From Litorimonas cladophorae (GTDB taxonomy: Bacteria > Pseudomonadota > Alphaproteobacteria > Caulobacterales > Maricaulaceae), in assembly GCF_014652455.1 (NCBI RefSeq), contig NZ_BMYV01000001.1:992001-1056000 (forward strand): a stretch of 64,000 nt of DNA, in the 5' to 3' direction. The notes under the pieces were generated by a model. It was not told where the DNA came from, ran no database searches, and saw nothing but the letters and a program-made list of their open reading frames with translations. The translations under genes were made by a program, and so were the position numbers. This document shows, one piece after another, positions 32,678-57,917 of this stretch (within the stretch, counting starts at the first letter, position 1; each line of letters begins with the position of its first letter).

Positions 32678-32679
32678 GC

Positions 32680-33435: not shown

Positions 33436-33514
33436 ATTCGTATCTTTCGGTTTAAAAAATTAGTTTCGTATTCAATTGATTTTAATGGCGAGAAAGAGGT
33501 TGTCGCCGCGGTGG

Positions 33515-35692: not shown

Positions 35693-38016
35693 AGCCCCTG
35701 ATTACCAGATAGAATTGCTGTATTCTCTGCATCGCTATTGAGTTCACGAATGCGCGGGGCCGCCGTGCCACCGAAATCATTGTTCAAAATTTGGGTCTTT
35801 GGTTCCCCAACAGTGTGATCAATAAGAAGCGGACGGGCGTCCGAGAATGTATTTTTATCGAAAAGCGTGACTTGCGCTCCATGTATTAAGAAGCTGCCGC
35901 CCGTTTTATTACGCTTATTGGCGCCTACTTTTTCGAAGGTTGATCCCGTGACAGTGACATGTGGACCAAATGTGCTTTCATCTGTGCCACCACGATAAAC
36001 TGTTGCGACGGTACCACCAATATTTGAGAACTCACTATCGGAGATAGTTAGGTACTCAGCGCCATAGATACCATAGTCATCGGTTTCACGATCCAGTCTC
36101 AAGACATGCCCCGTGGCATCAGAAACCTTGACGCGTTCCAAACTAATGTTGTCGGCGAACGTGCCCTTGGCCGTAGAAATCACGTCAAAGGAATGATTTA
36201 CGTCGAGATCTTCGAAAACCGTATCCGCGATTTCTAAGCGGTAATTTTCCAGCATTGAATATGGGCTGGTGCGGATAACAACATTGCCCGCGCTATCGGG
36301 TGTATCAGCGCCCGAAATTGTTAGGCCCTCCACCCGAAGGCTACCCCCGTCTTGTATTTCGAACAACGCATCACGTTCGTAAAGGAGGGTAACGTCGCCC
36401 TCGCCCTCAAATTTCAATGCGCTTGTGACAGGGATGACCCGATCTGCGGTATGTGTACCCGCCAATAAACGGATTGTGTCGCCATCTTCGGCTTGAGCCA
36501 CGAGTTTCGCGAGATTGCTTTCGCCTGGTTTCACCGTATGAACTTTTCCGGATCCAAACACGGTCGCCGAGCCGGCCTTCGGATAGTAAGACGCGCCGGT
36601 GTCAGACGCCTGCGTCACGACTAGGTCACGCGGAGCACCAACTTTTTCGGCACCCGACGGATAGAGCAATCCGTTTGCACCGCGTTCGAGTTTGACATCA
36701 TGAACTTCAAATGCAGATTCAAGCGGTTTAAGCGCTACGTTGCTAACATTCCCTTTGAAAGCGATCCCCGACATGTCGTCATAAACCGTCATGCTATTGC
36801 GGTTTTTGCGGTGGACGATCAAATTATCTTCCATCCGGGTGTCGACAGGCACAGCGCTACGTTCGGCGTCGCTACCTGCGCCAAGTTGGATATTATCGCT
36901 GTCGACCAATGTGTTGTTTGTAATGACGGCAGATTTAACCTGGTCATAACGGTTGATCGGTCCGTTCGGGACGCCGTTCATCACGACCAATGCGCCGCCA
37001 AAGCGTGACCCTGTCAGCCCCTCCATGTAATTATCCCGCACGGTTTGCCGTGCATTGATAACGCGGAAGCCACCTGTGTGGTCTTCGCCCTCACCCAAGA
37101 AGACATTTCGCTCCACAAGATTGCCATTCCCATGACGAAGTGTCAGCGTCCCCCGAGATTTATAAAACGTGTTGTTGCGGAAGACATTCCCGCCTGATTT
37201 GGACGAGATAATCTCAACTTCGCCATCACAGCGATCAAAATAGTTATTTTCAACAAGCGTCAGGCTGTCACTGCGGGAGTATTTACTGGTTCCAATACGA
37301 AGCGTTTCACCCCCATTTGAACCTAAGATAGGGCGCGGACCAAAATAGTTATGGTCAATGCGATGATTGTTCTTTTGGCTGGCTTCGCTATCCATACGGA
37401 CAGCCATGGTCACGCCACGGTTACGCTTATTCACCAAAGTGTTGTGATCAAAGCGATTGTTTTGCCCATACATCATGACCCAGAAATCCCCAGACGTACG
37501 CTCTGGTGGATTGTAGTCGTCAATTACAACATTATGGACTCGCGAATGATTGGCGAGGTGTTGTTTATTCCGTCGAAAGGAAATCACTTCCCTGGTGGGC
37601 GTAAACCCATTTTTAAAGACGAGGTTTGAGACGTCCAACCATTCGCCCGCTAGTCGGAGATTAGACTGACCGCTCAAGATAACTTTGCCTGGCGTTTCGC
37701 CCGTTAGTGAGATCGGCTTGTCTTCGGTACCTTCGCCAGTGAAAAGAATTTCAAAATCTACCCACTCACCATCCGCGAGCACTAAGGTATCCCCTGGCTG
37801 CAAAGATTTCATGGCCTCCGCATATTCGTCTTGAGTTGAAACGAGAACCCGCTCGCCCTGCTCCACAGACGTCGAGGTTGCTGGAGAGGCGTTTTCAGAC
37901 GGCGCGGGCGCACAGGCGGAGATTGCCCCAGACATCAGGAGGACCGTGGCGATCGCTGTCAGGGTAATGGGCTTAAGGCGCCCGTGAGACATCTGAATAT
38001 TTCCGCGCTGATTCAT
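35689..38016 (-). CDS. Alginate lyase, polysaccharide lyase family 6 (lipoprotein)
   Basis: About 775 residues from ATG 38016 (AGAGG 7 nt upstream); an in-frame ATG at 37992 and a TTG at 38046 are alternatives. The signal ends in lipobox ISAC, followed by a serine/proline linker. Two right-handed beta-helix domains follow, as in two-domain PL6 enzymes. The N-terminal one contains the catalytic region IISSKSGGNVFRNNTF (Lys) and GTLTLRHGNGN (Arg), with NGGETLRIG nearby, matching PL6/chondroitinase B. The C-terminal helix begins near residue 490. It cleaves polyguluronate-rich or mixed alginate. First gene of the lyase operon; site B lies 100-130 bp upstream. Confidence 0.95.
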   Translation of the reverse strand: MNQRGNIQMSHGRLKPITLTAIATVLLMSGAISACAPAPSENASPATSTSVEQGERVLVSTQDEYAEAMKSLQPGDTLVLADGEWVDFEILFTGEGTEDKPISLTGETPGKVILSGQSNLRLAGEWLDVSNLVFKNGFTPTREVISFRRNKQHLANHSRVHNVVIDDYNPPERTSGDFWVMMYGQNNRFDHNTLVNKRNRGVTMAVRMDSEASQKNNHRIDHNYFGPRPILGSNGGETLRIGTSKYSRSDSLTLVENNYFDRCDGEVEIISSKSGGNVFRNNTFYKSRGTLTLRHGNGNLVERNVFLGEGEDHTGGFRVINARQTVRDNYMEGLTGSRFGGALVVMNGVPNGPINRYDQVKSAVITNNTLVDSDNIQLGAGSDAERSAVPVDTRMEDNLIVHRKNRNSMTVYDDMSGIAFKGNVSNVALKPLESAFEVHDVKLERGANGLLYPSGAEKVGAPRDLVVTQASDTGASYYPKAGSATVFGSGKVHTVKPGESNLAKLVAQAEDGDTIRLLAGTHTADRVIPVTSALKFEGEGDVTLLYERDALFEIQDGGSLRVEGLTISGADTPDSAGNVVIRTSPYSMLENYRLEIADTVFEDLDVNHSFDVISTAKGTFADNISLERVKVSDATGHVLRLDRETDDYGIYGAEYLTISDSEFSNIGGTVATVYRGGTDESTFGPHVTVTGSTFEKVGANKRNKTGGSFLIHGAQVTLFDKNTFSDARPLLIDHTVGEPKTQILNNDFGGTAAPRIRELNSDAENTAILSGNQGL

Positions 38017-38116
38017 GCCAAGCCTCTTAAGAACACAGACAGCCAACCTCCTTCATAGGAGTCGGCTTTCTGATCATATGTAAAACAGCATAGCCCAATA
38101 AAAGCAACGCCTGTCA

Positions 38117-39096: not shown

Positions 39097-42000
39097 TTAG
39101 AAGCGACCCCGTACACCAAAGAAGATGCGCGGGCCGTAATCATTGACCTCATAACGATCATCTTGGACGAAGGCGTACTGGTTCTTAGGCTCGCTAAGAA
39201 TATTGATCGCTTCGGCTGTGACACGGAAGTTTTTGTTGATGTTGTAAGACGCGCGCGCCTCCCAGACACCAACTTCACCAACATAACGCAAACGGGTGCC
39301 GTCCGATGTAAACGGCTGGAAGTAGTTATCGCGGTACTTGTAGTTCACCGACAGATCGAGATCACCAACGCCGTAATAAACCTGTGCGGAAAGCGTATTC
39401 TCGGACAGACCTGGCAATCCAGCTGGCGCAATGATGCCTTCGTTCGTCTGAACAACGGATCCGTCCAACTGACGCTCAAAAGCATCGCCGTAACGGCTAT
39501 CTTCAAACTCAAAGTTTGATGTGACGTAGTTATAGCTAACTTTCGCACCCAGACCGCTCAAGAGACCGGGAAGATAGGTAAAGCCATGTGAGGCCGTAAC
39601 TTCGATCCCGAAGAGTGAGCTCTGATCGTCGCTTGTCTGCGAGACTGAAACAGCACGCGTAATATCGGCACCGTTCACACTGAAGGATTCATTCTGGCGA
39701 ATGTTTTCGAAACCGCCCTGGAAGGACTTATAATAACCGCCGAGGGCCAGGATTGTATCTGGGTTCGGATAATATTCGAAGCTGGCGTCATAATTCCATG
39801 ACATCAACGGATCGATTTTTGGGTTACCTGTCGCGCTCACGCTACCGATCAACTCTTCAACTGTAGTGATTGGATTTTCATCATCACCTTGGTTTGAAGA
39901 CAGGGTCCGGCTGAAGCCCATATCTGCTGGGTCTGCACGCGACATCGCGCGGAATACACCCAGACGTACGATTTTCGTGTCCGAAATATCCATGATCAAA
40001 TTCGCGCTTGGCAGAATTCGAGTGTAGGAATGCTTGGATGAAACGGACTCCAAATCTCCGAAGGACAACGTCAATTCACCGTCATCACCGGTGTTCACAT
40101 TCAAGGCACTTCTGAAGCCAGTTGCCTTAACATCCGTGTCCACGACACGAACACCAATGTTACCGGAGATTGGAAGCGTTCCGTCAATTTTGCCTGCGTA
40201 ATTGGTCATCAGGTAGAAAGATTTCGTCGTTTCTTCAACATCGATGACGTCGAGGCTTTCCTTTGAAAGATTTGGAGCAATGTTAGAGAATGCATCCAGA
40301 GCGCTTCCAAATGAATTTTCACGCGCGTCGGGGTTGCTGAGATAAGCATTTATGTCGCCCAAAATAGAATTGAGTGACTCGACAGCCGTATCGGCAACAC
40401 AACCCGCGTCGAATTGCGCCCAGCCATTTGTGGAAGATTCAACATTGCCATCATCATCATATATCGTGACGAGATCACCGCTACGCTGACTGCTCAGGAA
40501 AGAGTTACCTTCCACGAACGGATTATAACACGCGTCACGTGTAGAGCCGATAATACCAACAAGCGCGGCTTCTAAGGCCTGCTGTTGCGCACCTGCTGCG
40601 CCGCTGTCGTTAGAATCATCAAGGACTTCGCGGTTATTGACTGTTAGCTCACCATCATTTTCAATCTCGAACGAGAAACGTCCGCGGTTCGCGTTCAGAG
40701 GATTGCCAGAGTCAACGCCGCCTCCGCCACCGAGATCGACGTAATCCTGTTGTGACCAACGAATACCGGCTTCCAAATCTTGGAAGAACCCGTCGCCTAA
40801 CTCATAAGTCGCGTCGAAGCGGCCTGAATTAATTGTGTTTTCGCGTTCGACATCGCGATCAATACGGACCCGGAGACGATCTACATAGTTTGATGCATCG
40901 TTTACATCAAATGCATCGCTTCCATAGAGGCCATAGAGTGGAACGCCGCCGCTTGCATTATCATATGTGATAACGGGAGAACGGTCAGATTGAATACGGA
41001 ACTCACGGTTTTTCTCATTCCGCTCTGTCTTTGAATATCCATAGTCCGCTGCGATTGATAGACGATCCGTGACCTCATAAGCGACGTTGATACCGCCACC
41101 TAGATACGTTTCTTCACGTTCGAAATCACCGCCTTGAACTTCAATGTTGCCGTCGGTTGCCGCGAATAAGATCGCGCCGCTGGACGTGGTGCGAAGGGCA
41201 TCCAAAGTTGTGTCGAAGGGCAAGCCGTCTGCACCCAAGCTGGTATCATTGCGACGACCACCATTGAAGGTCAGGTCGCTGCGCTGCTCGGTTTGAATAC
41301 GTTCGGACCATTGTGCATCGAGGTTAATGTCTAAACGGTCATTTGGCGCCCATTGCACCGCGCCAAAAATGGAGTCGCGCTGATCACGTGTATCGTTTTG
41401 ACGGAAGTGACGCTGAGATGGAGCAAATGCGAATGGCGTGTTTCCATCTATGCTGGTTCCATTGTCGGTGAGCGACGTATCAAAGCCCTCTGTGTCTGAT
41501 CCACGTGTGTCCAAGTTTTCTGAGTTACGGCGATCATTGAAATCATCACAATCATCGTCACCGCGATCTCTAGTTTCTGGGTTGTTGGAGAACCCTGTGA
41601 AGGTTCCGCCATTTGTCTGATCCGTATATTGCTCACGTCCGTTTGAAATGAGGCAAGCAGGTCGCGAAGTCCCAAGCGGGCTGGTTTGACGTGCCTCAGC
41701 TTCTGGCTGGGAAATGTCACTGGTTTGGACACCTAAGGAAAATCCAATGTCGCCATTGCCAAGCTCAAACTGATCAACATAGCTGCCTGTTAGGCGATAA
41801 CCCAAATCGCCAGCTTCAGTATCATCTTGCTTCAACTGATCGGGGTTTACATTGGCTTTTGCGTCGAACTGAATGCGGCGTTTACCGAAATCAAGTGGCT
41901 TGAGTGTTTCGATTTGAATTTGACCCGCAACGCCGCCTTCGATTTGGCTGGCGTCCTGCGTTTTGAAAACGGCCAGCTTATTGACCAACTCTGATGGGAA

Positions 42001-42426
42001 TTGAGAGAAGTTGACAGAACGATCGCCCGAACCATTTGTTGCGGCTCGGCCGTTGACAACTGTTGAAGACAAATACGGACCGAGGCCCCGAATTGAAACT
42101 TCAGTCGCCCCACCGTTTTCACGATGTGAGGCAACACCCGTGATATTCTCGAGCGCCTCACCAATTGAAAGGGCTGGAATGTCACCGATTTCGTCGGCCG
42201 AAAGTCCGTCGACGATTTGCGTGCTGTTGCGCTTCAAAGCAATCGTGTCTTGAATAACTTGGCGTGTCCCAACCGCGATAACCTCGTCTTCCGTGTCGGA
42301 AGACTGTGCCATAGCAGGCTGTGCCATGAGGCTGAGAATCAGAATCGACGTCGACGCGCCCAATCCTTTTTTCAAACCAGCGTAAAAACGCGAGTTAGCG
42401 GTCGTGCTTGTGATATCATGAGACAT
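39097..42426 (-). CDS. TonB-dependent receptor (alginate-oligosaccharide type by context)
   Basis: 1109 residues. Signal peptide (ASTSILILSLMAQPAMA then QSS). The plug (about residues 45-170) has SADEIGDIPALSIGEALENI and EVSIRGLGPYLSSTVVNGR; the barrel ends in GVRGRF with the terminal phenylalanine. GGGGGAG precedes the ATG. It is clearly a different receptor from the one at 26878, so the organism may take up different alginate oligomers through two channels. Its promoter region carries the palindrome at 42536-42566. No SusD-like partner is present, as expected for a proteobacterium. Confidence 0.93.
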   Translation of the reverse strand: MSHDITSTTANSRFYAGLKKGLGASTSILILSLMAQPAMAQSSDTEDEVIAVGTRQVIQDTIALKRNSTQIVDGLSADEIGDIPALSIGEALENITGVASHRENGGATEVSIRGLGPYLSSTVVNGRAATNGSGDRSVNFSQFPSELVNKLAVFKTQDASQIEGGVAGQIQIETLKPLDFGKRRIQFDAKANVNPDQLKQDDTEAGDLGYRLTGSYVDQFELGNGDIGFSLGVQTSDISQPEAEARQTSPLGTSRPACLISNGREQYTDQTNGGTFTGFSNNPETRDRGDDDCDDFNDRRNSENLDTRGSDTEGFDTSLTDNGTSIDGNTPFAFAPSQRHFRQNDTRDQRDSIFGAVQWAPNDRLDINLDAQWSERIQTEQRSDLTFNGGRRNDTSLGADGLPFDTTLDALRTTSSGAILFAATDGNIEVQGGDFEREETYLGGGINVAYEVTDRLSIAADYGYSKTERNEKNREFRIQSDRSPVITYDNASGGVPLYGLYGSDAFDVNDASNYVDRLRVRIDRDVERENTINSGRFDATYELGDGFFQDLEAGIRWSQQDYVDLGGGGGVDSGNPLNANRGRFSFEIENDGELTVNNREVLDDSNDSGAAGAQQQALEAALVGIIGSTRDACYNPFVEGNSFLSSQRSGDLVTIYDDDGNVESSTNGWAQFDAGCVADTAVESLNSILGDINAYLSNPDARENSFGSALDAFSNIAPNLSKESLDVIDVEETTKSFYLMTNYAGKIDGTLPISGNIGVRVVDTDVKATGFRSALNVNTGDDGELTLSFGDLESVSSKHSYTRILPSANLIMDISDTKIVRLGVFRAMSRADPADMGFSRTLSSNQGDDENPITTVEELIGSVSATGNPKIDPLMSWNYDASFEYYPNPDTILALGGYYKSFQGGFENIRQNESFSVNGADITRAVSVSQTSDDQSSLFGIEVTASHGFTYLPGLLSGLGAKVSYNYVTSNFEFEDSRYGDAFERQLDGSVVQTNEGIIAPAGLPGLSENTLSAQVYYGVGDLDLSVNYKYRDNYFQPFTSDGTRLRYVGEVGVWEARASYNINKNFRVTAEAINILSEPKNQYAFVQDDRYEVNDYGPRIFFGVRGRF

Positions 42427-42603: not shown

Positions 42604-44286
42604 TTAAGGGGTCAGTCTTTTACGCAATTGATAGTCATATAAAGATGGCACATCGGTCATTGGTACGTTGAGGCGCTCAATGTAGGGGGACGGCCGATAA
42701 TCAACGTCAAATTCCCGATTCCCCGAAATGCCGACCAGGCGCGCATCGGGTCCTTCGGCGATTCCTCTCAACATGACTCTCTCCGAGCGCGTCGCACCGC
42801 TTTGTACATTTACCCTCAAATTCCAGGTCGTGTTGAAGCGACCATGGCCCGGCTGCCAATATCCCGCGCCACTGCCATCCCAAATCGGGTAAAATGGCCC
42901 ATTCTCATCTCGATCCGCCGCCACTTTGACTGTGATGTTGTCAAAAAGGTTCTGATGATTAGCACCAGCGTGTTGATCCAGTACAGCCGTTTCATTCACG
43001 ATTGCATTTTGGAAAACGCATTTCGTCGATTGGGTGTTGAGACTGAGAGAATGCACACTTGGATTATTCACGGTCAGGTTTTTCACGACCATATTGTGAA
43101 CATTGCCCGCGTGAACCGAATAATGCGCACGACGCTTTCCGGTTGTTTCAATGTTGGAGATCGTCACATTCGCGCTGTTATAACTCAGAATCCCGGTGTC
43201 GCCATTGTGGACACTAACGTCTCGGACCCAGCCGTTGAACACGCTAGTCAGGTAAATGGCGTTATAGCCGCGTTCCATGTGGTGCCCAAACGCAGGTGAG
43301 TCAGGAAAGGAGATGTGTAAATCTTCAATGCCGACATCCGTTATGTGGTCCCATTTCGCAAATTGCGCTGGAAGATCAGCAGAAATGTTGTGAAGCAAGG
43401 GGTCGCTGATGACGACCTGATCCCCCTCAACCGATAAGATCTCAGTTTTCTGACGTACGAGCGGACGATCTTTATTTGTCCAATGTCGAGAGCCGATTTT
43501 GACGTCTGTGTCACCATACATCTCTCGGATCAGAGGCCCCTTCTCCCCGCGTCGGTTGGACCATTGCAATTCCACGACATCCCCAACGGAGAGCTCACTG
43601 CCTTTATCAACGCTAACAATTTGGGTACCTACATCCCCGTTTGTGACGTTCGCCAACACAATGATTTTTGGGTCCTCGCTTTCGAGGTAGGACGCCGCAC
43701 GCGTACCTTCCTTCTGAACCCAGATGAAACCACCCGTCCAAGAATACTCGGAAAATAGCACATCTATGTTCTTGTCTTTCTCCCGTTGACGTTTGTCGTA
43801 TTTCTTTAAATATCGACGAATTTCATCGAAATGATCACCCGTTTCGACCATTTGAAGCGGGCGCGGTATATACAAATTCGTCCCAGCTGGCCCAGCGCCG
43901 GAGCCTCGCAGAACAATATTGCTACGCTGGATTTTCAGGACTTCAGATAAAATAACTCGTCCTTTTGGAAGTTGGACGACCACAGGACCCGCTACCTTAT
44001 GCGCGGCATCCAGAGCCTTAAGTAATCCCGCCGAGTCATCGATAACGTCATCCGCGATCACGCCGAATTTTGTAACATCAATGACCTGGCCATCGAAAAC
44101 TGGGATTTCGCCTACGCCGTGATTATATCCCGCAAAAGAAAAATCTGGTAGGTAGTTTTCCCCCATAACCTGCGCGTCGTTGAGAATCTTGATAGGCCCT
44201 TGGGCCTGAACTGAGGTCGATGCGCTTGCACAAATTATACCCAAGGCAGCTAAAATCGATATGCGATTATTGAAGGTATTTTTCAT
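42604..44286 (-). CDS. Secreted right-handed beta-helix protein, putative polysaccharide lyase of unassigned family
   Basis: About 560 residues from ATG 44286; a GTG at 44322 overlapping the upstream stop is an alternative and would lengthen the signal peptide. Signal: NNRISILAALGIICASASTSVQA. Residues ~60-110 have the pectate-lyase-superfamily start VIDVTKFGVIADDVIDDSAG. Regular beta-helix rungs follow (VTISNIETTGKRRAHYSVHA, NMVVKNLTVNNPSVHSLSLN), with possible catalytic or ligand residues in VLDQHAGANHQNLF. It resembles Pectate_lyase_3/DUF4955-type proteins; no PL6 K/R motif is present. It is cotranscribed with the hydratase-like gene and sits in the LacI-KduID block, so it may cleave a uronate polymer. 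Substrate unknown. Confidence 0.85.
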   Translation of the reverse strand: MKNTFNNRISILAALGIICASASTSVQAQGPIKILNDAQVMGENYLPDFSFAGYNHGVGEIPVFDGQVIDVTKFGVIADDVIDDSAGLLKALDAAHKVAGPVVVQLPKGRVILSEVLKIQRSNIVLRGSGAGPAGTNLYIPRPLQMVETGDHFDEIRRYLKKYDKRQREKDKNIDVLFSEYSWTGGFIWVQKEGTRAASYLESEDPKIIVLANVTNGDVGTQIVSVDKGSELSVGDVVELQWSNRRGEKGPLIREMYGDTDVKIGSRHWTNKDRPLVRQKTEILSVEGDQVVISDPLLHNISADLPAQFAKWDHITDVGIEDLHISFPDSPAFGHHMERGYNAIYLTSVFNGWVRDVSVHNGDTGILSYNSANVTISNIETTGKRRAHYSVHAGNVHNMVVKNLTVNNPSVHSLSLNTQSTKCVFQNAIVNETAVLDQHAGANHQNLFDNITVKVAADRDENGPFYPIWDGSGAGYWQPGHGRFNTTWNLRVNVQSGATRSERVMLRGIAEGPDARLVGISGNREFDVDYRPSPYIERLNVPMTDVPSLYDYQLRKRLTP

Positions 44287-44318
44287 GCTATTCGCAGCGC
44301 TCTCGTTTTTAAAAGGCC

Positions 44319-45131
44319 TCACTCAGGCTTTTGGGATGTCAGTATAAGATCAATATCAGCAACACCGGTGCAACTTACGGTGCTGGATTGCCCGGAATAG
44401 GCTCGATGGACACCCGTCACGGCCCCGGTCGTGATCAACATGCCCTTTTTAAGCGGAATGCCTCGCCGCGCTGTGTTTTCTAAAATAAAACGGAACGCTT
44501 CATACGGCTCGGGCGGGGCTTTAGCCCCCATGCTTTTACCCTCAATCACGGTCTCGATGATCCAATCGTCCAATGAAGACTCGTTCCAATTTGGAAGTAT
44601 CTCCCCCAATATGAGACCGTGATTGTTTCCGAAATCCGAAATCGGTGCGAAGGCTCCCATCTCGTTGATATGAGGGAATGGACTACTGGCGACCTCGACC
44701 CCAAGGCGGACGTCGCCAATATACTTTTTGGCCGCCTCAAGCGTCCAGTCCAACTTGTCCACAGGCGCATCTCTGCTCACTTCAAACACGATTTCCGCCT
44801 CCACTGCGCCGAAGCCTTCGGCGTAAATCGGCATGGGAATCCGTTCACCTGTACTGTGATGAACATTATGCGCGAAAACAGGTCCTGCGAGCTTAGACGC
44901 TCCAACTTCAGCAGCCTGCTCAGGCCCGATGCCGCCAACTTTCCACCCCGCAATTTTGTGAGGCCATTTCGATATCGCGATATCTTGGATCCTATAAGCC
45001 TCTGGAAGTGATGCAGGGAACTTTCCAGGATATTCGGTCAGTCCGCGGCAATTGCGACGCGCCGATGTGAAAGCGTCAGCAACGGCCTCAAGATCTGAAA
45101 GGGTGGCGGTCATTGTAGAAGTCTCATTCAT
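44319..45131 (-). CDS. 2-keto-4-pentenoate hydratase/FAH-family enzyme in a uronate operon
   Basis: About 270 residues. The start is taken at ATG 45131; an upstream codon at 45155 or an ATG six codons downstream are possible. KIAGWKVGGIGPEQAAEVG, AVEAEIVFEVSRD and ISDFGNNHGLILG follow the MhpD/HpaH pattern, including the metal-binding E-x-E. Family members add water to, or decarboxylate, 2-keto-enoic acids. It shares the fold with HpaH (59478) but not its operon. Here it is first gene of a minus-strand pair with the beta-helix protein, under a LacI-type site at 45167, so it probably acts on a keto-deoxy sugar acid rather than an aromatic product. That substrate idea is inference. Confidence 0.88.
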   Translation of the reverse strand: MNETSTMTATLSDLEAVADAFTSARRNCRGLTEYPGKFPASLPEAYRIQDIAISKWPHKIAGWKVGGIGPEQAAEVGASKLAGPVFAHNVHHSTGERIPMPIYAEGFGAVEAEIVFEVSRDAPVDKLDWTLEAAKKYIGDVRLGVEVASSPFPHINEMGAFAPISDFGNNHGLILGEILPNWNESSLDDWIIETVIEGKSMGAKAPPEPYEAFRFILENTARRGIPLKKGMLITTGAVTGVHRAYSGQSSTVSCTGVADIDLILTSQKPE

Positions 45132-45166: not shown

Positions 45167-45181
45167 GGTAACCGGTGTCAT
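45167..45181. promoter_or_regulatory. LacI-type operator upstream of the hydratase/beta-helix operon
   Basis: GGTAACCGGTGTCAT, the exact reverse complement of the site at 46391-46405. The central CCGG with flanking near-dyad matches LacI-family operators. It is 36 bp from the ATG at 45131, in the divergent promoter shared with the lacI-type gene. Confidence 0.7.
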
Positions 45182-45308: not shown

Positions 45309-46358
45309 ATGACGACGCAGCGGGACAAGGGCACAATTACCATCAACGATATCGCCCGTATGTCCGGCGTGTCGAAGAAAACCGTCTCACGCGTTATAAA
45401 TAAGTCCCCGTCGGTTGGCGCAAATACGCGCAAACAAATTGAAAAGATTATTGAGGAAACCGGGTTCATCCCCAACCCGCAAGCTCAAGCCCTCGCCTTT
45501 CGTCGCTCCTTCTTAATTGCCCTCGTCTACGACAACCCAAGCCCGCAATATATTGCGAATATTCAGCGCGGGGTCCTCAAGGCTTTGGAAGGCACGAGGT
45601 TTCAACTCGTCCTACGGCCATGCGACCGAGCAGAGCTTAACTACCACGACAAAATCCTATCCTTCGTCCAGCAACACAATCCGTTCGGCCTAATTTTTGT
45701 CCCATCTATGTCAGAGGACATTGAGCTGTCGCGAAAGCTCAAAGAAAGAAATTGTCACTTCGTTCGTATCGCATCTGTGGATTTAACGGACCCAGCCCAT
45801 CAAATTAAGACCGCCGACGCCGAGGGTGCAAAACTGGCTGCGCGGCATTTGGCGCAACTTGGGCATACTAAAGTTGCGCATATCCACGGGCCCGAACTAT
45901 TCCAATCAACGCATGAACGTCGGGATGGATTCAAAGCTGGCCTCGCTGAATTTGGCTTAAGTTTAGCCCCCGAACTCACGATAGAAGGCGCCTACACATT
46001 TGACTCAGGCGTCAAATGCGCGACAACGCTATTGCATGGAAAAGAGCGCCCCACCGCCATATTCACTGGCAATGATGAAATGGCCGTTGGCGTTTACGTT
46101 GCCGCGAGAAAGGCAGGCTTGCGGATCCCGCAAGACCTTTCCGTTGTAGGATTTGACGACACCCCAATCGTTTCCCGCATTTGGCCGCCTATGACGTCTG
46201 TCAGGTTTCCTATTCGGGATTTAGGTTTCGACGTAGCTACGCTTTTAATCGACTCAGATAAGATGCCCCCTGCCCAACAGCGCACCGTTCCACAAATCGT
46301 CGAGCTCGACCTTATTATACGCGAGTCGACAACCGCGCCCGTTTCAGAAATACGATGA
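45309..46358 (+). CDS. LacI family transcriptional regulator
   Basis: 349 residues. The helix-turn-helix ITINDIARMSGVSKKTVSRVINKSP is at residues ~10-35 with the hinge following; the periplasmic-binding-protein-like ligand domain covers ~65-340 (PTAIFTGNDEMAVGVYVAAR, DLSVVGFDDTP). It lies between the divergent hydratase/beta-helix operon and the kduI-kduD genes. An identical 15-bp operator is found in front of both, so it probably represses both and responds to a uronate-derived ligand. Confidence 0.94.
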   Translation: MTTQRDKGTITINDIARMSGVSKKTVSRVINKSPSVGANTRKQIEKIIEETGFIPNPQAQALAFRRSFLIALVYDNPSPQYIANIQRGVLKALEGTRFQLVLRPCDRAELNYHDKILSFVQQHNPFGLIFVPSMSEDIELSRKLKERNCHFVRIASVDLTDPAHQIKTADAEGAKLAARHLAQLGHTKVAHIHGPELFQSTHERRDGFKAGLAEFGLSLAPELTIEGAYTFDSGVKCATTLLHGKERPTAIFTGNDEMAVGVYVAARKAGLRIPQDLSVVGFDDTPIVSRIWPPMTSVRFPIRDLGFDVATLLIDSDKMPPAQQRTVPQIVELDLIIRESTTAPVSEIR

Positions 46359-46390: not shown

Positions 46391-46405
46391 ATGACACCGG
46401 TTACC
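46391..46405. promoter_or_regulatory. LacI-type operator upstream of kduI
   Basis: ATGACACCGGTTACC, identical on the opposite strand to 45167-45181. It lies 31 bp before the kduI GTG and 32 bp after the lacI-type stop, indicating a separate promoter for kduID. Orientation relative to the downstream gene is the same at both sites. Confidence 0.7.
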
Positions 46406-46436
46406 GTAAACAGACGAAAAAGTGCGGGAGAGATTT

Positions 46437-47285
46437 GTGTTTAACAAAACATATCATGCGACCCATCCAGACATGATGGATGGCGTGAGCAATGAGCAAC
46501 TGCGTGATCGCTATGTCGTGCCTGATTTGTTTAAAGCGGGCGAGATCAACATGAGCTATTCGCACAATGAGCGTTTCGTCATTGGTGGTGTGGCCCCTGT
46601 TTCAAAGTCGATCAAACTTCCGGCACAAACCGTTCCGGCGTCTGCCGAAGGTCACCCTTTCCTAGAACGTCGCGAACTGGGCGTAATTAACGTGGGTGGC
46701 GGTTCCGGTACGGTTACGATTGATGGGACGACCCATAATCTCAATAAACTTGACGGTCTTTACATTCCAATGGGCAGCGATGACGTCGTCTTCGCGTCAG
46801 ATGATGCCTCCAACCCTGCTAAATACTACCTACTTTCGACACCTGCTCACAAAGCATATGAGGTAGTCAAAATTTCAATCGATCAAGCCGTTCCGCTGGA
46901 GCGCGGTTCACTGGCTGAAAGTAATGAGCGGATCATCTATCAATATATTGTCCCGACAACGGCCAAGTCTTGCCAGCTTCTACTAGGTCTCACCATACTT
47001 AGCGAAGGCAGTGTGTGGAATACGATGCCACCGCATCTTCATGATCGCCGCTCTGAAGTTTATTTCTATTTCGACCTCGATGAAAACGCCCGTCTTTTTC
47101 ACTTTATGGGTGAAGAGGACAAAATTCGTCACATTGTGATGGAAAATGAGGAAGCTGTGATTTCCCCGCCTTGGTCGATCCACATGGGGTCGGGAACGAA
47201 AGCTTACTCCTTTATCTGGGGTATGGGCGGTGAAAACTTAGATTACACCGATCTCAATGTCTGCGATATCTGCCAGCTTCAATAG
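46437..47285 (+). CDS. kduI: 5-keto-4-deoxyuronate isomerase (4-deoxy-L-threo-5-hexosulose-uronate ketol-isomerase)
   Basis: 282 residues from GTG 46437, which has GGGAGAG 5 nt upstream; the N-terminus then matches KduI ([21 protein letters not shown]). The zinc site of this cupin enzyme is visible in [16 protein letters not shown] (two His, Glu) with a later His in [11 protein letters not shown]. It converts 5-keto-4-deoxyuronate (DKI) to 2,5-diketo-3-deoxygluconate (DKII), a step best known from pectin and glycosaminoglycan breakdown. It overlaps kduD by one base and is controlled from its own promoter with a LacI-type operator. Confidence 0.95.
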
Positions 47286-48043
47286 TGTCCTCTATGTTCG
47301 ATCTTTCAGGTAAAGTCGCACTTGTTACCGGGGCCAATACGGGTCTTGGGCAGGGCATGGCCCTCGCACTTGCGGGAGCTGGCGCAAATATAGTTTTGAT
47401 CGGACGGTCCGAACCGACTGAAACCCTCATCGAAATCGCGAAGCTAGGGGTCAAATCTCACTCAATCCTGACAGATCTAGGTAGTGCGGACAACGTCGCT
47501 GGCATTGTTGCCGAAGCCGCCGCCACATTTGGTTCCGTCGACATCCTTGTGAACAATGCAGGCATTATTAAACGAAACGAAGCGATCGAATTTACACCCG
47601 AGGAATGGGACTCGGTAATGAACGTAAATCTGCGGACATTATTTTTTCTGTCCCAAGCCTTTGCTCGGCATCTCGTTGACGAGAAAAAAACGGGTAAGAT
47701 CATCAACATTGCGTCTATGTTGACTTTTCAAGGCGGCATTCGGGTGCCTTCTTACACGGCGTCCAAAAGTGCTGTTGGAGGGCTGACGAAAGCCCTCGCG
47801 AATGAATGGGCACAGCACGGCATCAACGTCAATGCAATCGCCCCGGGCTATTTTGCCACAAATAACACCGCAGCTCTTCAAGCCGACGAAAAGCGTAACA
47901 GCGAAATCTTGAGGCGTATCCCGAGTGAACGCTGGGGAGAGCCTTCCGATTTGAGTGGCGCTGTTGTATTTTTGGCCTCTGCAGGATCCGACTATGTGCA
48001 AGGCATTACGCTTCCTGTCGATGGAGGCTGGCTATCGCGTTAG
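47285..48043 (+). CDS. kduD: 2-deoxy-D-gluconate 3-dehydrogenase / DKII reductase
   Basis: 252 residues, GTG start overlapping the kduI stop. The start of KduD is clear: MFDLSGKVALVTGANTGLGQ. NNAGIIKRNEAIEF, catalytic serine in INIASMLTFQGG and Y-x-x-x-K in SYTASKSAVGGL are typical. It reduces 2,5-diketo-3-deoxygluconate to KDG, which KdgK then phosphorylates. The kduI-kduD pairing makes the assignment firm. Confidence 0.94.
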   Translation: MSSMFDLSGKVALVTGANTGLGQGMALALAGAGANIVLIGRSEPTETLIEIAKLGVKSHSILTDLGSADNVAGIVAEAAATFGSVDILVNNAGIIKRNEAIEFTPEEWDSVMNVNLRTLFFLSQAFARHLVDEKKTGKIINIASMLTFQGGIRVPSYTASKSAVGGLTKALANEWAQHGINVNAIAPGYFATNNTAALQADEKRNSEILRRIPSERWGEPSDLSGAVVFLASAGSDYVQGITLPVDGGWLSR

Positions 48044-48143: not shown

Positions 48144-49175
48144 ATGACCACTACTCCGTCAAAACTTAATCCCAAATTTAAATTGCCAATGGCGAACCGA
48201 CGCCAAGTCCTTGCAGCTGGTGGCGCCGCCGCTCTGCTGACAGGGTGCGGAGCGGCCGATGTCAACCGACCACTTCTGGCGGCCGATATTTTGCCCGACG
48301 GATTCCCAACGGTTGAGGCCGTGAAATATATGGGCAAGCTCATGAGTGAGCGGACCGACGGACGCCTCAGCATCAAAATGTTCGCAGGCGGACAGCTAGG
48401 CTCTGAACGTGACACGCTTGAGATCACAACCTTTGGCGGACTTGATATTGACCGTATCGCTATCGCGCCGCTTAATACGTTTGAGCCTTTGACGATCATC
48501 CCCGCCCTTCCCTTCCTTTTCCGCTCCACGGCCCATATGCGCGGCGCGATGGATGGCGCTCCCGGACAGATGATCTTGGATGCACTTCAACCACATGGAT
48601 TGGTAGGCCTCTGTTTCTACGATTCAGGCGAACGAAGTTTTTACAATACGAAACGCCCTATCCTGAAGCCTTCTGACATGAAGGGCATGAAGATTCGTGT
48701 TCAGAACTCTGACCTTTATGTATCAATGATCAAAGCGCTCGATGCCGATCCTACACCGATGTCTCTGGGGGAAGTCTATCAATCCCTTGTCCAAGGCGTG
48801 ATCGACGGCGCGGAGAATAATTGGCCGTCCTATCAAACAGGACGCCATTTCGAAGCGGCCCCTTATTACAGCCTCACCCGCCATGTTATGGCGCCTGAAA
48901 TCCTCGTCATGTCACTCAGCCGTTGGAATAAATTATCCAAAGCCGACCAAGAAATCGTCAAGCAATCCGCCAGAGACTCCGTGCCGATGATGCGCGACCT
49001 CTGGGACGCGCGCGTTAATTCAGCACGGACTGAGCTTTTGGCTGCAGGCGTCGAAGCCAATGAGGTTGAAGATCAATCCGCCTTTAGCGATTTGATGAAA
49101 CCTGTTTGGGAGCGTTATATCGTCTCTGACAAACAGAAAGCGCTCGTGAAATCTATCCAGTCCATGGAGCTATAA
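48144..49175 (+). CDS. TRAP transporter substrate-binding protein (DctP family)
   Basis: 343 residues. The N-terminus has a twin-arginine lipoprotein signal: NRRQVLAAGGAAALLTGC, with Cys in a lipobox. The rest is a DctP fold with the conserved region DMKGMKIRVQNSDLYVSMIKAL and the ligand-contact stretch QGVIDGAENNWPSYQTGRH. It captures an acidic solute in the periplasm for the DctQ/DctM permease encoded next. It follows kduD by 100 bp on the same strand, so the ligand is probably a uronate or unsaturated oligouronate; this is inferred from context. Stop and dctQ start overlap. Confidence 0.94.
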   Translation: MTTTPSKLNPKFKLPMANRRQVLAAGGAAALLTGCGAADVNRPLLAADILPDGFPTVEAVKYMGKLMSERTDGRLSIKMFAGGQLGSERDTLEITTFGGLDIDRIAIAPLNTFEPLTIIPALPFLFRSTAHMRGAMDGAPGQMILDALQPHGLVGLCFYDSGERSFYNTKRPILKPSDMKGMKIRVQNSDLYVSMIKALDADPTPMSLGEVYQSLVQGVIDGAENNWPSYQTGRHFEAAPYYSLTRHVMAPEILVMSLSRWNKLSKADQEIVKQSARDSVPMMRDLWDARVNSARTELLAAGVEANEVEDQSAFSDLMKPVWERYIVSDKQKALVKSIQSMEL

Positions 49176-49708
49176 TGTCCGATAATACGCTCGCACGCGT
49201 CACGCACAAAGCGGCTGACGTCCTTCTCATTGTTTCTGGCATTGCGTTGCTGATGATGACCTTCATTGTTGGCTGGCAAGTTTTTGGCCGTTACGTTTTG
49301 GGCTCCAGTCCATCTTGGGCCGAGCAAAGCGCATTGACACTGATGATTTGGTTTATCTTTCTGGGCGGCGCGGCCGGCGTTCGCGATGGGTTCCATATCC
49401 GCATTATCGCGGTCGAAAATATGGTGTCTAAATCCACACGAAAGAAAATGCGGATCGCCTCCAACGCCGTTGTAGGCTTTTGTGGCCTCGCAATGCTTTG
49501 GTGGGGCGGCGAACTTGTCGTTCGAACTTGGAGCCACGTTATTCCGTCCTTGGGTATTCCTCGCGGTATGGCCTATCTCGCAATCCCGATCGCGGGCGCA
49601 TTGACGACTATTTTTTCTTTGGAACGCATCTTTGATGACCCAGCTGAAAAAGCCAAAATTGGCGAAATGTCAGCGTTCGGGGTCGAAACTGAAGAGGGAG
49701 ACGCATAA
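49175..49708 (+). CDS. TRAP transporter small permease (DctQ family)
   Basis: 177 residues with four membrane helices (about 15-37, 50-70, 90-110, 128-150). The conserved W-x-E-Q motif is present as PSWAEQSALTLMIW, and GGAAGVRDGFHIRI follows as in DctQ proteins. It forms the membrane complex with the large permease; it overlaps dctP by 1 bp and dctM by 1 bp. Confidence 0.94.
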   Translation: MSDNTLARVTHKAADVLLIVSGIALLMMTFIVGWQVFGRYVLGSSPSWAEQSALTLMIWFIFLGGAAGVRDGFHIRIIAVENMVSKSTRKKMRIASNAVVGFCGLAMLWWGGELVVRTWSHVIPSLGIPRGMAYLAIPIAGALTTIFSLERIFDDPAEKAKIGEMSAFGVETEEGDA

Positions 49709-50985
49709 TGGAAATTCTTGTCCTATTAGTTGTTCTGGTCGTTCTTCTGATGATGGGTGTACCCGTTGCCTACGCCCTTCTAGGTTCCGCAATGGCGACA
49801 TTTGTTGTTCTCGACATTCCACTTGTTGTTGCCTTTCAGCGCATGGCGGCGGGGGTCAGCGTCTTCTCGCTCATGGCCATTCCATTCTTCATTTTTGCCG
49901 GCGACCTGATGTATCGATCGGGGATTGCCGAACGCCTTGTCCAGATTGCCGAAGGTACATTCGGACGTCCACGTGGCGGTCTTGGTATGGTCAATGTTGG
50001 CGCATCTTCCCTTTTTGGCGCCGTTTCTGGCTCTGCGATTGCTAGCGCTTCGGCTATGGGCTCGACTTTGATGCCTCTGATGAAAGAACGCGGATATGAC
50101 GGTGATTATGCGGTTAACGTGACGGTTACCGCCGCGATTGTTGGCCTCCTTATTCCGCCGTCGCATAATATGATTATCTATTCTGCGGCATCCGGGATTG
50201 GTGTCTCGATTGGGGATCTGTTCCTTGCAGGCGTTGTCCCCGGTGTGTTGACAGCGGGCCTCCTCATGTTCGTGGCATGGCGCGTCGCGATTAAGCGCGG
50301 TTATCCAGGCGGTAAATTCCCAGGCTGGCGCGCGTTTGCCAAAGCGATTGTGTTTGCGATTCCCGGTTTGATGACGGCGATCATTATCATGGGCGGCATT
50401 TTGTCTGGCATTTTCACGGCGACCGAAAGCTCATCTATCGCCGTAATTTACACAATGCTGATTGGCTTCTTTATCTACCGCACGCTCGGTCTGAAAACGC
50501 TGTTCAAATCGGCGAAAGAGTCTGTGAAGATCACAGCGATGGTGATGCTCATCATCGCCTCGGCCACAGCTTTTGGATACGCCCTCGCCATTCTTGAGGC
50601 ACCCACACAACTGGCGAGCCTGATCACATCGGTCACAGATAATCCGATAGCGGTCTTATTGATCGTCAATGTCATTTTATTGGTACTTGGCACCTTTATG
50701 GATATGTCACCGCTAATCGTGATCATGACGCCAATCCTGCTGCCTGTCGTAATGGCAGTGGGTGTTGATCCTGTGCACTTCGGGATCATTATGATGATTA
50801 ACTTGGGTATCGGATTGGTGACACCGCCCGTCGGCGCGGTTCTCTTTGTTGGGGCTGCGGTGGGGAAAATCCCGGTCGAACAGGCGATCAAAACGATTTG
50901 GCCATTTTATCTGGCCCTCGTCGCAGCGCTTTTGCTGATCACATTTGTTCCGCAAATTTCATTGGCGCTTCCAAACCTGTTTTAA
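49708..50985 (+). CDS. TRAP transporter large permease (DctM family)
   Basis: 425 residues with about 12 membrane segments. AIPFFIFAGDLMYRSG, GASSLFGAVSGSAIASASAMGS and the PPSHNMIIYS region are typical of DctM, the Na+-coupled transport subunit. It completes the dctPQM set after kduID, and a terminator follows 9 bp after its stop, so kduI-kduD-dctPQM could be one transcript. Confidence 0.95.
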   Translation: MEILVLLVVLVVLLMMGVPVAYALLGSAMATFVVLDIPLVVAFQRMAAGVSVFSLMAIPFFIFAGDLMYRSGIAERLVQIAEGTFGRPRGGLGMVNVGASSLFGAVSGSAIASASAMGSTLMPLMKERGYDGDYAVNVTVTAAIVGLLIPPSHNMIIYSAASGIGVSIGDLFLAGVVPGVLTAGLLMFVAWRVAIKRGYPGGKFPGWRAFAKAIVFAIPGLMTAIIIMGGILSGIFTATESSSIAVIYTMLIGFFIYRTLGLKTLFKSAKESVKITAMVMLIIASATAFGYALAILEAPTQLASLITSVTDNPIAVLLIVNVILLVLGTFMDMSPLIVIMTPILLPVVMAVGVDPVHFGIIMMINLGIGLVTPPVGAVLFVGAAVGKIPVEQAIKTIWPFYLALVAALLLITFVPQISLALPNLF

Positions 50986-53670: not shown

Positions 53671-55035
53671 TTAAGAGATAGAGACGGTCTTGATGTTGCA
53701 GAAGGCCCGAAGACCTTCTGCGGCCAATTCCCGACCATACCCCGAACGCTTGACGCCACCAAACGGTAAGGCGGGATGGGACGCCGTCATAGAATTGACG
53801 AAGGTCGCACCAGCTTCGATCTCATTAATCGCGAACGCTTGCTCGTCGGAGTCTTGGGTGAAAATCGACGAGCCCAGTCCAAATGGACTGTCATTGGCAA
53901 GTTCAATCGCCTCTTCAATAGAGTGAACTTTAAATAACAATGCGACAGGCCCGAAAATCTCTTCATGGTAGGCGTTTGATGACTGTTGGATATGCTCCAA
54001 AATCCCAGGTCGATAGAAAAATCCGGGGCCGTCAATGACTTCGGCGCCTGTCACGCGCGCCGCGCCATCTTTAATCGCATTTTCGACTTGCTTCGCAATT
54101 TCATCCCGTGCGGACTCCGTCACCATAGGTCCAATATCTGTTGCGGGACTGTTTGGATCACCAACCACGAGGGCTTCAAACCCTACTTTGAATTTGGCTT
54201 TGAATTCGTCGTAAATATCGGCGTGTATAATAAACCGTTTGCCCGCGATACAGGACTGCCCGCAATTCTGCGTCCGCGCTGTGACGGCGACCTCGACGGC
54301 TTTATCGAGATCGGCGCTAGGCATCACGATGAAAGCATCAGAGCCGCCAAGCTCAAGAACTGTTGGTTTAATCACTTCCCCACAGATTGACGCCACGGAC
54401 GATCCTGCACCTTCTGAGCCCGTGAGGGTAGCGCCGCGAACCCGATCATCCCGCAAAATATCACCGACCTGATCGGTGGTGATAAACATACTCTGCAACG
54501 AACCCTCAGGGAAGCCAGCGCGACGGACCACATCTTCGACCGACAGTGAACATTGCGGCACGTTTGACGCATGTTTTAATAACCCCGTATTGCCCGCCAT
54601 CAGCGCAGGCGCGACGAAGCGGTAAACTTGCCACAACGGATAATTCCACGGCATCACAACCATGATCGGCCCCAGCGGCAGGTATTTCTTATATGTCTGT
54701 GCATCCGTGGCCTCGACAACCTCATCGGCCATCATGCTTTCGGCGTGGTCCGCATAGTAGCGGCACCCCATCGCGCATTTTTTAACTTCGCCAATTGCGG
54801 ATTTCAGCGTCTTACCCATTTCGAGCGTAATGATAGCGCCGAGACGATCCGCCTCATCTTCAAGGATATCTGCGATACGATGCATGGCGGCTTTACGGTC
54901 TTCCATAGACCAAGACTTGAGGGTTTTATGCGCCGCCCAAGACGCAACCAGAGCGTCCTCGATTTGGGATTCAGAGATATTGTCAAATGTCGCTTCGACT
55001 TCGCCTGTGGCGGGATTGGTGGATGCAAATGCCAT
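53671..55035 (-). CDS. NAD(P)-dependent succinate-semialdehyde dehydrogenase
   Basis: 454 residues, ALDH superfamily of the Sad/YneI type. Active-site glutamate in LELGGSDAFIV and cysteine in NCGQSCIAGKRF; cofactor region VVMPWNYPLWQVYR and TLTGSEGAG. The N-terminus is short (FASTNPATGEVEATF) as in this subgroup. In the homoprotocatechuate pathway the final aldolase gives pyruvate and succinic semialdehyde, which this enzyme oxidises to succinate. It lies 14 bp after hpaE on the same strand, supporting this role. The aldolase itself (HpaI) is not seen. Confidence 0.92.
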   Translation of the reverse strand: MAFASTNPATGEVEATFDNISESQIEDALVASWAAHKTLKSWSMEDRKAAMHRIADILEDEADRLGAIITLEMGKTLKSAIGEVKKCAMGCRYYADHAESMMADEVVEATDAQTYKKYLPLGPIMVVMPWNYPLWQVYRFVAPALMAGNTGLLKHASNVPQCSLSVEDVVRRAGFPEGSLQSMFITTDQVGDILRDDRVRGATLTGSEGAGSSVASICGEVIKPTVLELGGSDAFIVMPSADLDKAVEVAVTARTQNCGQSCIAGKRFIIHADIYDEFKAKFKVGFEALVVGDPNSPATDIGPMVTESARDEIAKQVENAIKDGAARVTGAEVIDGPGFFYRPGILEHIQQSSNAYHEEIFGPVALLFKVHSIEEAIELANDSPFGLGSSIFTQDSDEQAFAINEIEAGATFVNSMTASHPALPFGGVKRSGYGRELAAEGLRAFCNIKTVSIS

Positions 55036-55049
55036 AAGATGTCTCGCGA

Positions 55050-56976: not shown

Positions 56977-56998
56977 GAAATCTCCTTGACCCTTTTAT

Positions 56999-57010
56999 TT
57001 AACATGTTAA
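56999..57010. promoter_or_regulatory. Probable HpaR operator, hpaF/hpaG divergent promoter
   Basis: Perfect 12-bp palindrome TTAACATGTTAA, followed by GTAC. The same 12-mer, followed by TTAC, occurs at 60275-60286 over the hpaH start. MarR-family proteins bind such AT-rich palindromes. It lies between the divergent starts at 56976 and 57045. Confidence 0.7.
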
Positions 57011-57044
57011 GTACATTGCACCTCGAAAATGTCAAGGATCCAAA

Positions 57045-57905: not shown

Positions 57906-57917
57906 GCTAAGATTTGC

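Follow-up and report, generated by a model that had tools for sequence, protein, structure and literature searches.

5-Keto-4-deoxyuronate (DHU) has been described from glycosaminoglycans (GAGs) and pectin and is handled by KduI and KduD or by DhuI (PMC12838403), whereas alginate-derived 4-deoxy-L-erythro-5-hexoseulose uronate (DEH) is converted to 2-keto-3-deoxy-D-gluconate (KDG) by a DEH reductase (PMC8778563). Among the polysaccharide lyases (PLs), BT3328 of Bacteroides thetaiotaomicron is an endo-lyase acting on hyaluronan, chondroitin and dermatan (PMC9067506). We analyzed a 64,000-nucleotide stretch of the Litorimonas cladophorae genome (contig NZ_BMYV01000001.1, positions 992,001 to 1,056,000; hereafter the window), in which genes for a secreted right-handed β-helix protein (BHX) and for a hydratase-like protein of the fumarylacetoacetate hydrolase (FAH) fold (HYD) lie divergently from kduI and kduD. 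Taken as a whole, our best explanation, to which we assign a probability of about 0.48, is that BHX is a lyase and HYD stands in the role of KdgF, with both feeding KduI and KduD under the control of LacI-type operators.

According to this proposal secreted BHX would cut a glucuronic acid (GlcA)-type uronic acid polymer other than alginate by β-elimination, with glucuronan-like polymers or ulvan as candidates, and the products would enter through a TonB receptor and a tripartite ATP-independent periplasmic (TRAP) transporter. In the cytoplasm HYD, as a metal-dependent hydratase/tautomerase, would convert the 4,5-unsaturated uronate to DHU by ring opening and ketonisation; KduI would then isomerise and KduD reduce, taking DHU to KDG, which would merge with the alginate branch at the KDG kinase step. 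Both divergent units would be under a LacI repressor acting through ATGACACCGGTTACC operators. The analysis itself establishes the sequences, their homology and predicted folds, the operator copies, the co-occurrence of genes and the exclusion between HYD and KdgF; the lyase activity, the polymer, the transport route, the role of the repressor and the reaction of HYD are what we infer.

HYD in relation to DHU isomerases and KdgF

The scores of HYD homologs are bimodal: in a sample of the class 10 of 385 genomes reach at least 279 bits, with the next at 156, and in a sample of the phylum 27 of 398 reach at least 264, with the next at 109 (the L. cladophorae genome is counted in both). KduI is encoded by 63 of the 398 phylum genomes and DUF3666 is found over its cut-off in 31, giving 76 genomes with either; we use "DhuI" for RpiB-like proteins with DUF3666, a family that we take as a marker of the DhuI type. 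All 27 genomes with HYD encode one of these isomerases (19 KduI, the other eight DUF3666), and HYD is found in none of the 322 isomerase-free genomes (hypergeometric test, 5e-22).

We then considered the regions around HYD in all 31 other genomes with a high-scoring copy, some of which end early at contig ends, and identified neighbors by tblastn. These regions encode KduI or DhuI in 22 cases, a KdgK match in 14, a pectate-lyase-like protein in 14 (the probe has no Pfam match and finds PDB 9buj, "Pectate lyase", at 7e-26), an ExuT-type transporter in 13, DctP in 11, altronate dehydratase in seven and BHX in two. In 22 of the 31 the gene that follows HYD on the same strand is an ExuT-type or DctP match, where "ExuT" is a label given by reading to a group whose representative is a major facilitator superfamily transporter with a D-galactonate transporter as its best NCBIfam model, under the cut-off. 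Given that BHX is present in only two of these regions, as against 22 with KduI or DhuI, HYD belongs to DHU metabolism in general, often for pectin, and is not the private partner of BHX; the specific coupling of the two proposed in a sequence-only reading of the window is thus abandoned. HYD-like genes with 33-41% identity also occur on plasmids of Niveispirillum, Indioceanicola, Novosphingobium, Sphingobium, Azospirillum and Croceicoccus, where their annotation reads 2-keto-4-pentenoate hydratase, FAH family protein or hypothetical protein, or is missing (20 of 27 records listed). A literature search covering few subscription papers returned no paper that pairs 2-keto-4-pentenoate hydratase with KduI or with pectin and galacturonate, and none among the matches listed that places a fumarylacetoacetate hydrolase alongside KduI/KduD.

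HYD and KdgF mostly exclude each other, and this suggests that HYD replaces KdgF. Half of the isomerase genomes (38/76) encode KdgF (weakest best E-value 2.2e-11), such that two have both genes, 25 HYD only, 36 KdgF only and 13 neither, an exclusion that is significant when counted by genome (Fisher 2.7e-8) and by genus (2e-4). In two families (f74 and f191) the genomes are mixed, some with HYD, some with KdgF and some with neither. Across 115 loci KdgF is near none of the 46 HYD genes and is present in five of the other 69 loci (L019, L029, L034, L036 and L037). A KdgF query found no match in the L. cladophorae genome at E 0.001 and in the window nothing better than E 0.21; five cupins of this genome are over the cut-off, all outside the window, and the two that were compared with PDB matched other cupins, not KdgF. 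Ring opening of unsaturated uronates is generally ascribed to KdgF or, in its absence, to spontaneous chemistry. In a published survey kdgF was found in under half of the cluster-positive strains for all types of isomerase cluster but one (PMC12838403). We give even odds to HYD performing the KdgF step.

As to its provenance, a profile of 14 HYD members, built without the HpaH paralog in the window and without L006, matched NahK (2.8e-13, the best PDB sequence match) and MhpD (7e-10). The AlphaFold2 (AF2) model (predicted local distance difference test, pLDDT, 92.1) superimposes on MhpD, NahK and HpcG over 246-251 residues (Z 27.9-29.1), whereas listed FAH folds outside this group reach at most 16.5. 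K64, E111, E113 and E146 are invariant in the 14 members and also in a 16-row alignment that includes the HpaH paralog; by correspondence with positions in MhpD, we take them to be the lysine and the metal-site glutamates. No equivalog cut-off is reached in this family: the window protein scores 16.8 bits on an NCBIfam equivalog with a cut-off of 408.8, and the best E-value of the 14 members is 1.6e-10. Opening of the ring of an unsaturated uronate yields the enol of a 2-keto acid, and MhpD-type enzymes bind a 2-keto-carboxylate on their metal and move protons on such enols. Since the ring-opened uronate is an enol of the kind on which these enzymes act, it is plausible by analogy that HYD is a tautomerase or hydratase on this compound.

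The fold group and metal site shared with MhpD would also suit a repair hydratase, which re-hydrates unsaturated keto acids arising by spontaneous water loss from DHU or KDG, or a side-route dehydratase. The product of MhpD is a 4-hydroxy-2-oxo acid, like DHU and KDG, the strict linkage to isomerases fits any step near DHU, and the title of PMC6868183 points to DEH as a reactive compound. 2-Furancarboxylic acid stands among the keywords of another (PMC8778563). Nevertheless, we hold such a role to be unlikely, because near exclusion with KdgF (both in 2/76) is expected for one common step, albeit non-significant by family, and because the uronate transporter gene following HYD in 22 of the 31 regions suggests an entry step. 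Even less probable is that HYD acts as an FAH-superfamily hydrolase or decarboxylase and takes DHU, 2,5-diketo-3-deoxygluconate (DK-II) or a diketo acid to pyruvate and a C3 unit, thereby bypassing KDG kinase and Eda. HYD has its fold in common with L-2,4-diketo-3-deoxyrhamnonate hydrolase (8gsr, Z 15.8) and KD-arabinonate dehydratase (2q1d, Z 14.5), and its best PDB sequence match, NahK, is a decarboxylase, but its resemblance to the hydratase/decarboxylase group (Z 28-29) is much closer than that to the hydrolases, and the KdgK match in 14 of the 31 regions indicates that the KDG route is kept.

BHX as a relative of PL29 and its likely substrate

The sequence-only reading had left BHX unassigned and had raised the possibility of a new PL family. 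However, all 36 scanned members of the BHX group match NF058554, the model of the BT3328 hyaluronan endo-lyase of PL29 (best E-value 8.4e-34), with the window protein far under its cut-off. For comparison we used not BT3328 itself but relatives of it that score 230-451 bits on NF058554 and come from the family to which Flavobacterium fluvii belongs; these are called PL29-like below. In an hhalign comparison the 36 BHX proteins align with nine PL29-like proteins from end to end (28-559) with probability 100 and E 2.7e-52. Six residues, H335, H388, H412, H439, W488 and N489, are present in 36/36 BHX and 16/16 PL29-like rows, and H336 in 36/36 and 15/16, the 16 rows including two identical ones and excluding the divergent L109, L131 and L132. 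The window protein is 21-26% (about 24%) identical to the PL29-like proteins, and in a phylogenetic tree a branch of length 1.74 (support 100/99) separates the 36 BHX proteins from the other rows; L132 adjoins the BHX clade on a very long branch, its placement being unsure. From these alignments the BHX clade falls within the PL29 superfamily, so that the suggested new family becomes either a deeply diverged subfamily or a sister family of PL29. As a separate observation, L109, L131 and L132 are further divergent β-helix proteins of the PL29 superfamily, outside both BHX and the main PL29-like group; all three have H335, H388, H412, H439 and W488, and two of the three H336 and N489.

The signal peptide (by eye) and the pectate-lyase-superfamily start (PF12708, 2e-9) noted in the sequence-only reading are both borne out. 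A β-helix match is also over its Pfam cut-off, with NosD and DUF4955 (0.0065, under the gathering score) below theirs; DUF4955 is matched by the PL29-like proteins L099 (2e-52) and L119 (4e-59) and at 0.01 by neither of the BHX members L012 and L064. Structure prediction, from which that reading had sought a comparison with PL families, gave a good AF2 model (pLDDT 90.2) and recovered only the general β-helix fold: the matches include the putative pectin lyase of a phage (7chu, Z 25.3), a K1 capsule lyase (Z 24.6), an alginate epimerase/lyase (8jaz, Z 24.5) and an alginate lyase from Paenibacillus (Z 22.5), along with polygalacturonases and a galactosidase, with no PL29 structure among those listed. 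P29_PDnc, an ulvan oligosaccharide dehydratase, was weighed as a possible model for BHX but rejected, since such dehydratases are predicted with the PL37 family (PMC8511951).

As the fold leaves lyase and hydrolase undecided, homology and gene neighborhoods have to decide. A glycoside hydrolase (GH) or epimerase built on the same β-helix would be consistent with the PF12708 match, with fold matches that include polygalacturonases, GH110 and alginate epimerases, and with the weak matches of 5/36 members to rhamnogalacturonidase models at 1e-3. Further, of the five close relatives that are encoded in full length on plasmids (H61-H65), three (H61, H63 and H64) are annotated as "glycosyl hydrolase family 28-related protein", one as hypothetical and one not at all. 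Yet the end-to-end homology is to PL29-type proteins, no GH28 model is among the Pfam matches of BHX at E 0.1, and the loci carry genes for handling lyase products, namely GH88, KduI, DhuI and KduD, which together make a hydrolase or epimerase rather improbable. Thus, judged by homology and neighbors, BHX is quite likely a lyase acting on a GlcA-type polymer. In the literature on PL29 and glucuronan, or on new PL families and glucuronic acid, none of the paper titles listed describes BHX.

A scan of one genome per species yielded 178 stretches with the pattern, 158 of which encode a BHX relative at E 1e-3; the best 80 of these 158 were kept. They comprise 26 proteobacterial loci, with 48-74% identity to the window protein, and 54 others with 46-49% (best segment), which are from Flavobacterium and other Bacteroidetes along with a few oddly labelled metagenome-assembled genomes (MAGs). 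Three contigs labelled as Klebsiella pneumoniae, Chitinophaga pinensis and Rhizobium sp. (L038, L089 and L090) carry loci of the flavobacterial type, probably through binning or label errors. The best-matching named records are MAGs of Hyphomonadaceae, Robiginitomaculum, Caulobacterales and Hellea. In the vicinity of L. cladophorae the gene is patchy, as a match is found in eight of 60 nearby genomes, including its own and one weak case (G008, 3.7e-8).

Neighbors of BHX were sought by tblastn (E 1e-12) over at most about 10 kb on either side, several of the stretches ending at contig ends, and the cluster representatives were verified by Pfam or NCBIfam. The 26 proteobacterial loci encode KduI in 16 cases, DhuI in five others, HYD in 15 and DctP in 12; in five loci (L013, L016, L018, L031 and L033) an RpiB/DUF3666-type, DhuI-like isomerase takes the usual place of KduI. 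The 54 others encode GH88 (50), UxuA (46), Eda (39), YhcH (37), an ExuT-type transporter (18), UxaC (16) and KduI (3), and none has HYD. PF05426 lyases, which we take to represent PL38 (glucuronan, alginate or GAG lyases), are found in 11 of these 54 and in 2/26 proteobacterial loci. GH88 is found in none of the 26 with a flavobacterial probe that can miss distant GH88, and the GH88 of Catenovulum has 28 bits on PF07470. A count of KduD in 47/54 flavobacterial loci was set aside, as it covers short-chain dehydrogenases generally and counts of KduD elsewhere may be inflated likewise; of three checked by NCBIfam, those of L058 and L052 are D-mannonate oxidoreductases and that of L037 a gluconate 5-dehydrogenase. 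Two further components of these loci deserve mention: YhcH (DUF386; e.g. in L040) may be a further factor for ring opening or anomerisation that stands in for HYD or KdgF, and a DUF4861 protein (L045 3755-4924) recurs in Flavobacterium BHX loci, its cluster being present in 30 loci.

The common denominator of the BHX loci is a GlcA-type uronate. The two routes described at the outset, combined with stereochemistry, make KduI/KduD a mark of the GlcA, galacturonic acid (GalA) and iduronic acid (IdoA) series that is dispensable for alginate-derived DEH. This supports the sequence-only proposal of a secreted, probable lyase together with a keto-acid step for a non-alginate polyuronate, and the polymer of BHX is most likely of the GlcA type and other than alginate, glucuronan-like or ulvan. 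In favor of glucuronan, uronate genes make up most of the flavobacterial loci, and glucuronan lyases occur among the members of PL38 (PMC13027841); ulvan is just as good a candidate. The plasmid pAlt76 of Alteromonas sp. 76-1 encodes a BHX (L220 4038-5672), and a published account presents this plasmid as dedicated to polysaccharides and ties it to ulvan, its dbCAN table listing no PLs other than PL24 and PL25 for the plasmid (PMC6431674). A Catenovulum plasmid brings together a TonB receptor, GH88, BHX, KduI, a PF05426 lyase, GH2, uxaC and TRAP, and on two Asticcacaulis plasmids a TonB receptor and a LacI-type regulator precede BHX, one with annotated GH88 and kduI about 10 kb away. That BHX instead serves the neighboring alginate cluster is highly improbable: alginate-type lyases (PL6, PL17 and PL7) lie within 12 kb in the window and are scattered in other BHX loci (PL6 in 2/26 and PL17 in 3/26 proteobacterial ones, PL7 in 4/54 and PL17 in 2/54 others), but most BHX loci lack an alginate lyase match and have DHU or glucuronate genes, and BHX is found on the ulvan-linked plasmid (PMC6431674) and on the Catenovulum plasmid with KduI and UxaC.

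Locus, operators and standing of the proposal

The two open reading frames on which the sequence-only reading was built do exist, with the limits listed in Table 1. The open frame of BHX extends over 42604-44322, the ATG at 44286 being the likely start, after which a Sec-type signal (MKNTFNNR...SVQAQG) can be read by eye; HYD starts with ATG and by eye has no signal peptide. HYD and BHX likely form one transcription unit, given that only 32 nt separate the HYD stop from the BHX ATG. Divergent from them are the LacI gene and then kduI, kduD and the TRAP transporter.

Table 1. Features of the L. cladophorae window, with window coordinates
Feature	Position	Strand	Evidence or remark
BHX, secreted right-handed β-helix protein, 560 aa	42604-44286	-	PL29 superfamily; probable GlcA-type polysaccharide lyase
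HYD, hydratase, FAH-fold MhpD/NahK/HpcG group, 270 aa	44319-45131	-	Probable unsaturated-uronate to DHU step
LacI-type operator ATGACACCGGTTACC, upstream of HYD-BHX	45167-45181	-	Exact match, 0 mismatches
LacI-family regulator, presumed regulator of the locus	45309-46358	+	LacI 1.1e-17, Peripla_BP_3 2.8e-33
LacI-type operator ATGACACCGGTTACC, second exact copy, upstream of kduI	46391-46405	+	0 mismatches
kduI, 5-dehydro-4-deoxy-D-glucuronate isomerase	46422-47285	+	NF002091 399 bits, cut-off 250
kduD, 2-dehydro-3-deoxy-D-gluconate 5-dehydrogenase	47285-48043	+	TIGR01832 390 bits, cut-off 338.85
TRAP transporter substrate-binding protein DctP	48144-49175	+	PF03480 8.9e-79
TRAP small permease DctQ	49175-49708	+	Named by sequence reading and position; counterparts in related loci
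TRAP large permease DctM	49708-50985	+	As DctQ
TonB-dependent receptor downstream of BHX, candidate oligosaccharide importer	39097-42426	-	PF00593, PF07715
KDG kinase-like protein, presumed step common to alginate and DHU branches	30279-31313	+	Best models NF041633 and NF041332, both under cut-off
FAA_hydrolase	57045-57905		Homoprotocatechuate-type meta-cleavage region
LigB-type dioxygenase	58343-59161		Homoprotocatechuate-type meta-cleavage region
HpaH, conventional HYD relative	59478-60281		TIGR02312 404 bits, cut-off 351.5; 18% identity to HYD

The operon and operator that the sequence-only reading had both BHX and HYD share with kduI-kduD proved half right: ATGACACCGGTTACC is exact at both places, and the genes form two divergent units with the LacI gene between them. 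One copy lies 35 bp before the HYD ATG and the other 16 bp before the first possible start of kduI, a GTG, and the 14-mer core has exactly two exact copies in the 3.02 Mb genome, both at this locus. With up to two mismatches the genome has 16 core sites as against 31 for the reversed control, and with up to three the window has three matches to the operator as against 1.0 expected, so that the telling evidence is the two exact copies.

Operator-like sites (up to two mismatches, up to 310 bp upstream of the match) precede 25 of 46 HYD genes, 60 shuffled motifs giving a mean of 0.017 and a maximum of 1 in the same HYD-upstream test. They also precede DhuI in 7/9 cases, KduI in 9/27 and BHX in 2/17; since the motif was derived from the window, these counts favor loci near it, and several of the MAG loci from gammaproteobacteria hardly differ from one another. 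The low count for KduI may partly reflect that kduI often sits inside an operon. LacI-type regulators are encoded in 22 of the 31 HYD regions and in 15 of the 26 proteobacterial BHX loci, and in a study of LacI regulons ExuR, KdgR, UxaR and UxuR are named for glucuronate and galacturonate (PMC4052901). The regulator in the window would act as repressor of both divergent units through the ATGACACCGGTTACC operators.

Several observations weigh against the explanation as a whole. The exclusion between HYD and KdgF is not significant by family (Fisher 0.39), so that much of it follows clades; 13 of the 76 isomerase genomes have neither gene and only 27 have HYD, nine of the 31 HYD regions have no isomerase within about 10 kb (some ending at contig ends), and ring opening is assumed to be non-enzymatic where KdgF is absent (PMC12838403). 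For BHX, DUF4955 is under threshold in the window protein and absent in two other members, the structure comparison reaches the general β-helix fold only, hydrolases and epimerases included, and the window protein scores 82.4 bits (2.2e-23) on NF058554, whose cut-off is 1100. That cut-off is narrower than the superfamily, as PL29-like proteins of Flavobacteriaceae miss it too (up to 451 bits, 0/149 genomes over it). An HMM search found no GH88 or GH105 in the L. cladophorae genome, so that the last unsaturated residue would have to be released by an exolytic lyase (BHX or other) or by an unrecognised enzyme. Lastly, at up to two mismatches operator-like sites are absent upstream of 21/46 HYD and 15/17 BHX genes.

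A wider version of the proposal, which we put forward more tentatively, holds both that HYD, as an unrecognised metal-dependent enzyme of the FAH fold, takes the place of KdgF across many alpha- and gammaproteobacteria, turning unsaturated GlcA or GalA into DHU in pathways for pectin, glucuronan-like and ulvan-like polymers, and that the BHX clade is a separate PL family beside PL29 with a new substrate. If true, the step called spontaneous in KdgF-free strains would be enzymatic in sphingomonads, relatives of Azospirillum and marine bacteria with HYD. HYD, which 25 of the 38 isomerase genomes without KdgF encode, is a candidate enzyme for much of the KdgF gap in proteobacteria, and BHX represents a large uncharacterised clade with a predictable substrate class (46-74% identity in the best 80 of 158 stretches).

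Beyond these genes, the window has an alginate cluster adjoining the locus (31325-38046), with PL7-type (PF08787), short-chain dehydrogenase/reductase, PL17-type (Alginate_lyase and Hepar_II_III_C) and PL6-type genes, and at 53671-60281 a set of homoprotocatechuate-type meta-cleavage genes that by reading includes aldehyde dehydrogenases.

Comparison with known systems

BHX and the PL29-like proteins have in common the β-helix, an N-terminal DFSYAGY-type and a C-terminal SLYxxQLxxR-type signature, the set of histidines and the W488-N489 pair. The PL29-like L099 has a GH88 gene beside it (PF07470, 4.7e-8), and 50 of the 54 flavobacterial-type BHX loci likewise hold GH88. In contrast to the PL29-like proteins, BHX forms one clade on a long branch (21-26% identity for the window protein), with DUF4955 absent or under threshold, an insertion at about residues 152-181 (a gap in the hhalign alignment) and loci with glucuronate or DHU genes. 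BHX is also distinct from PL6, in that PF14592 (Chondroitinas_B) is matched at 4.6e-115 by the neighbor at 35689-38046 and is not among the matches of BHX at E 0.1. The PF05426 lyases are of a different Pfam family and occur in the same loci as BHX (2/26 and 11/54), alongside which they probably act.

HYD for its part has the fold of MhpD, NahK and HpcG together with their K64, E111, E113 and E146, but it is encoded in uronate loci and scores far under the NCBIfam equivalog cut-offs. With KdgF (PDB 5fpx, 5fpz and 5fq0) it shares no fold, the one being a cupin and the other an FAH-type protein. Nonetheless, the two would carry out the same proposed step, from 4,5-unsaturated uronate to ketonised DHU, both occur with KduI or DhuI (PMC8778563), and among the 63 isomerase genomes with at least one of them only two have both.

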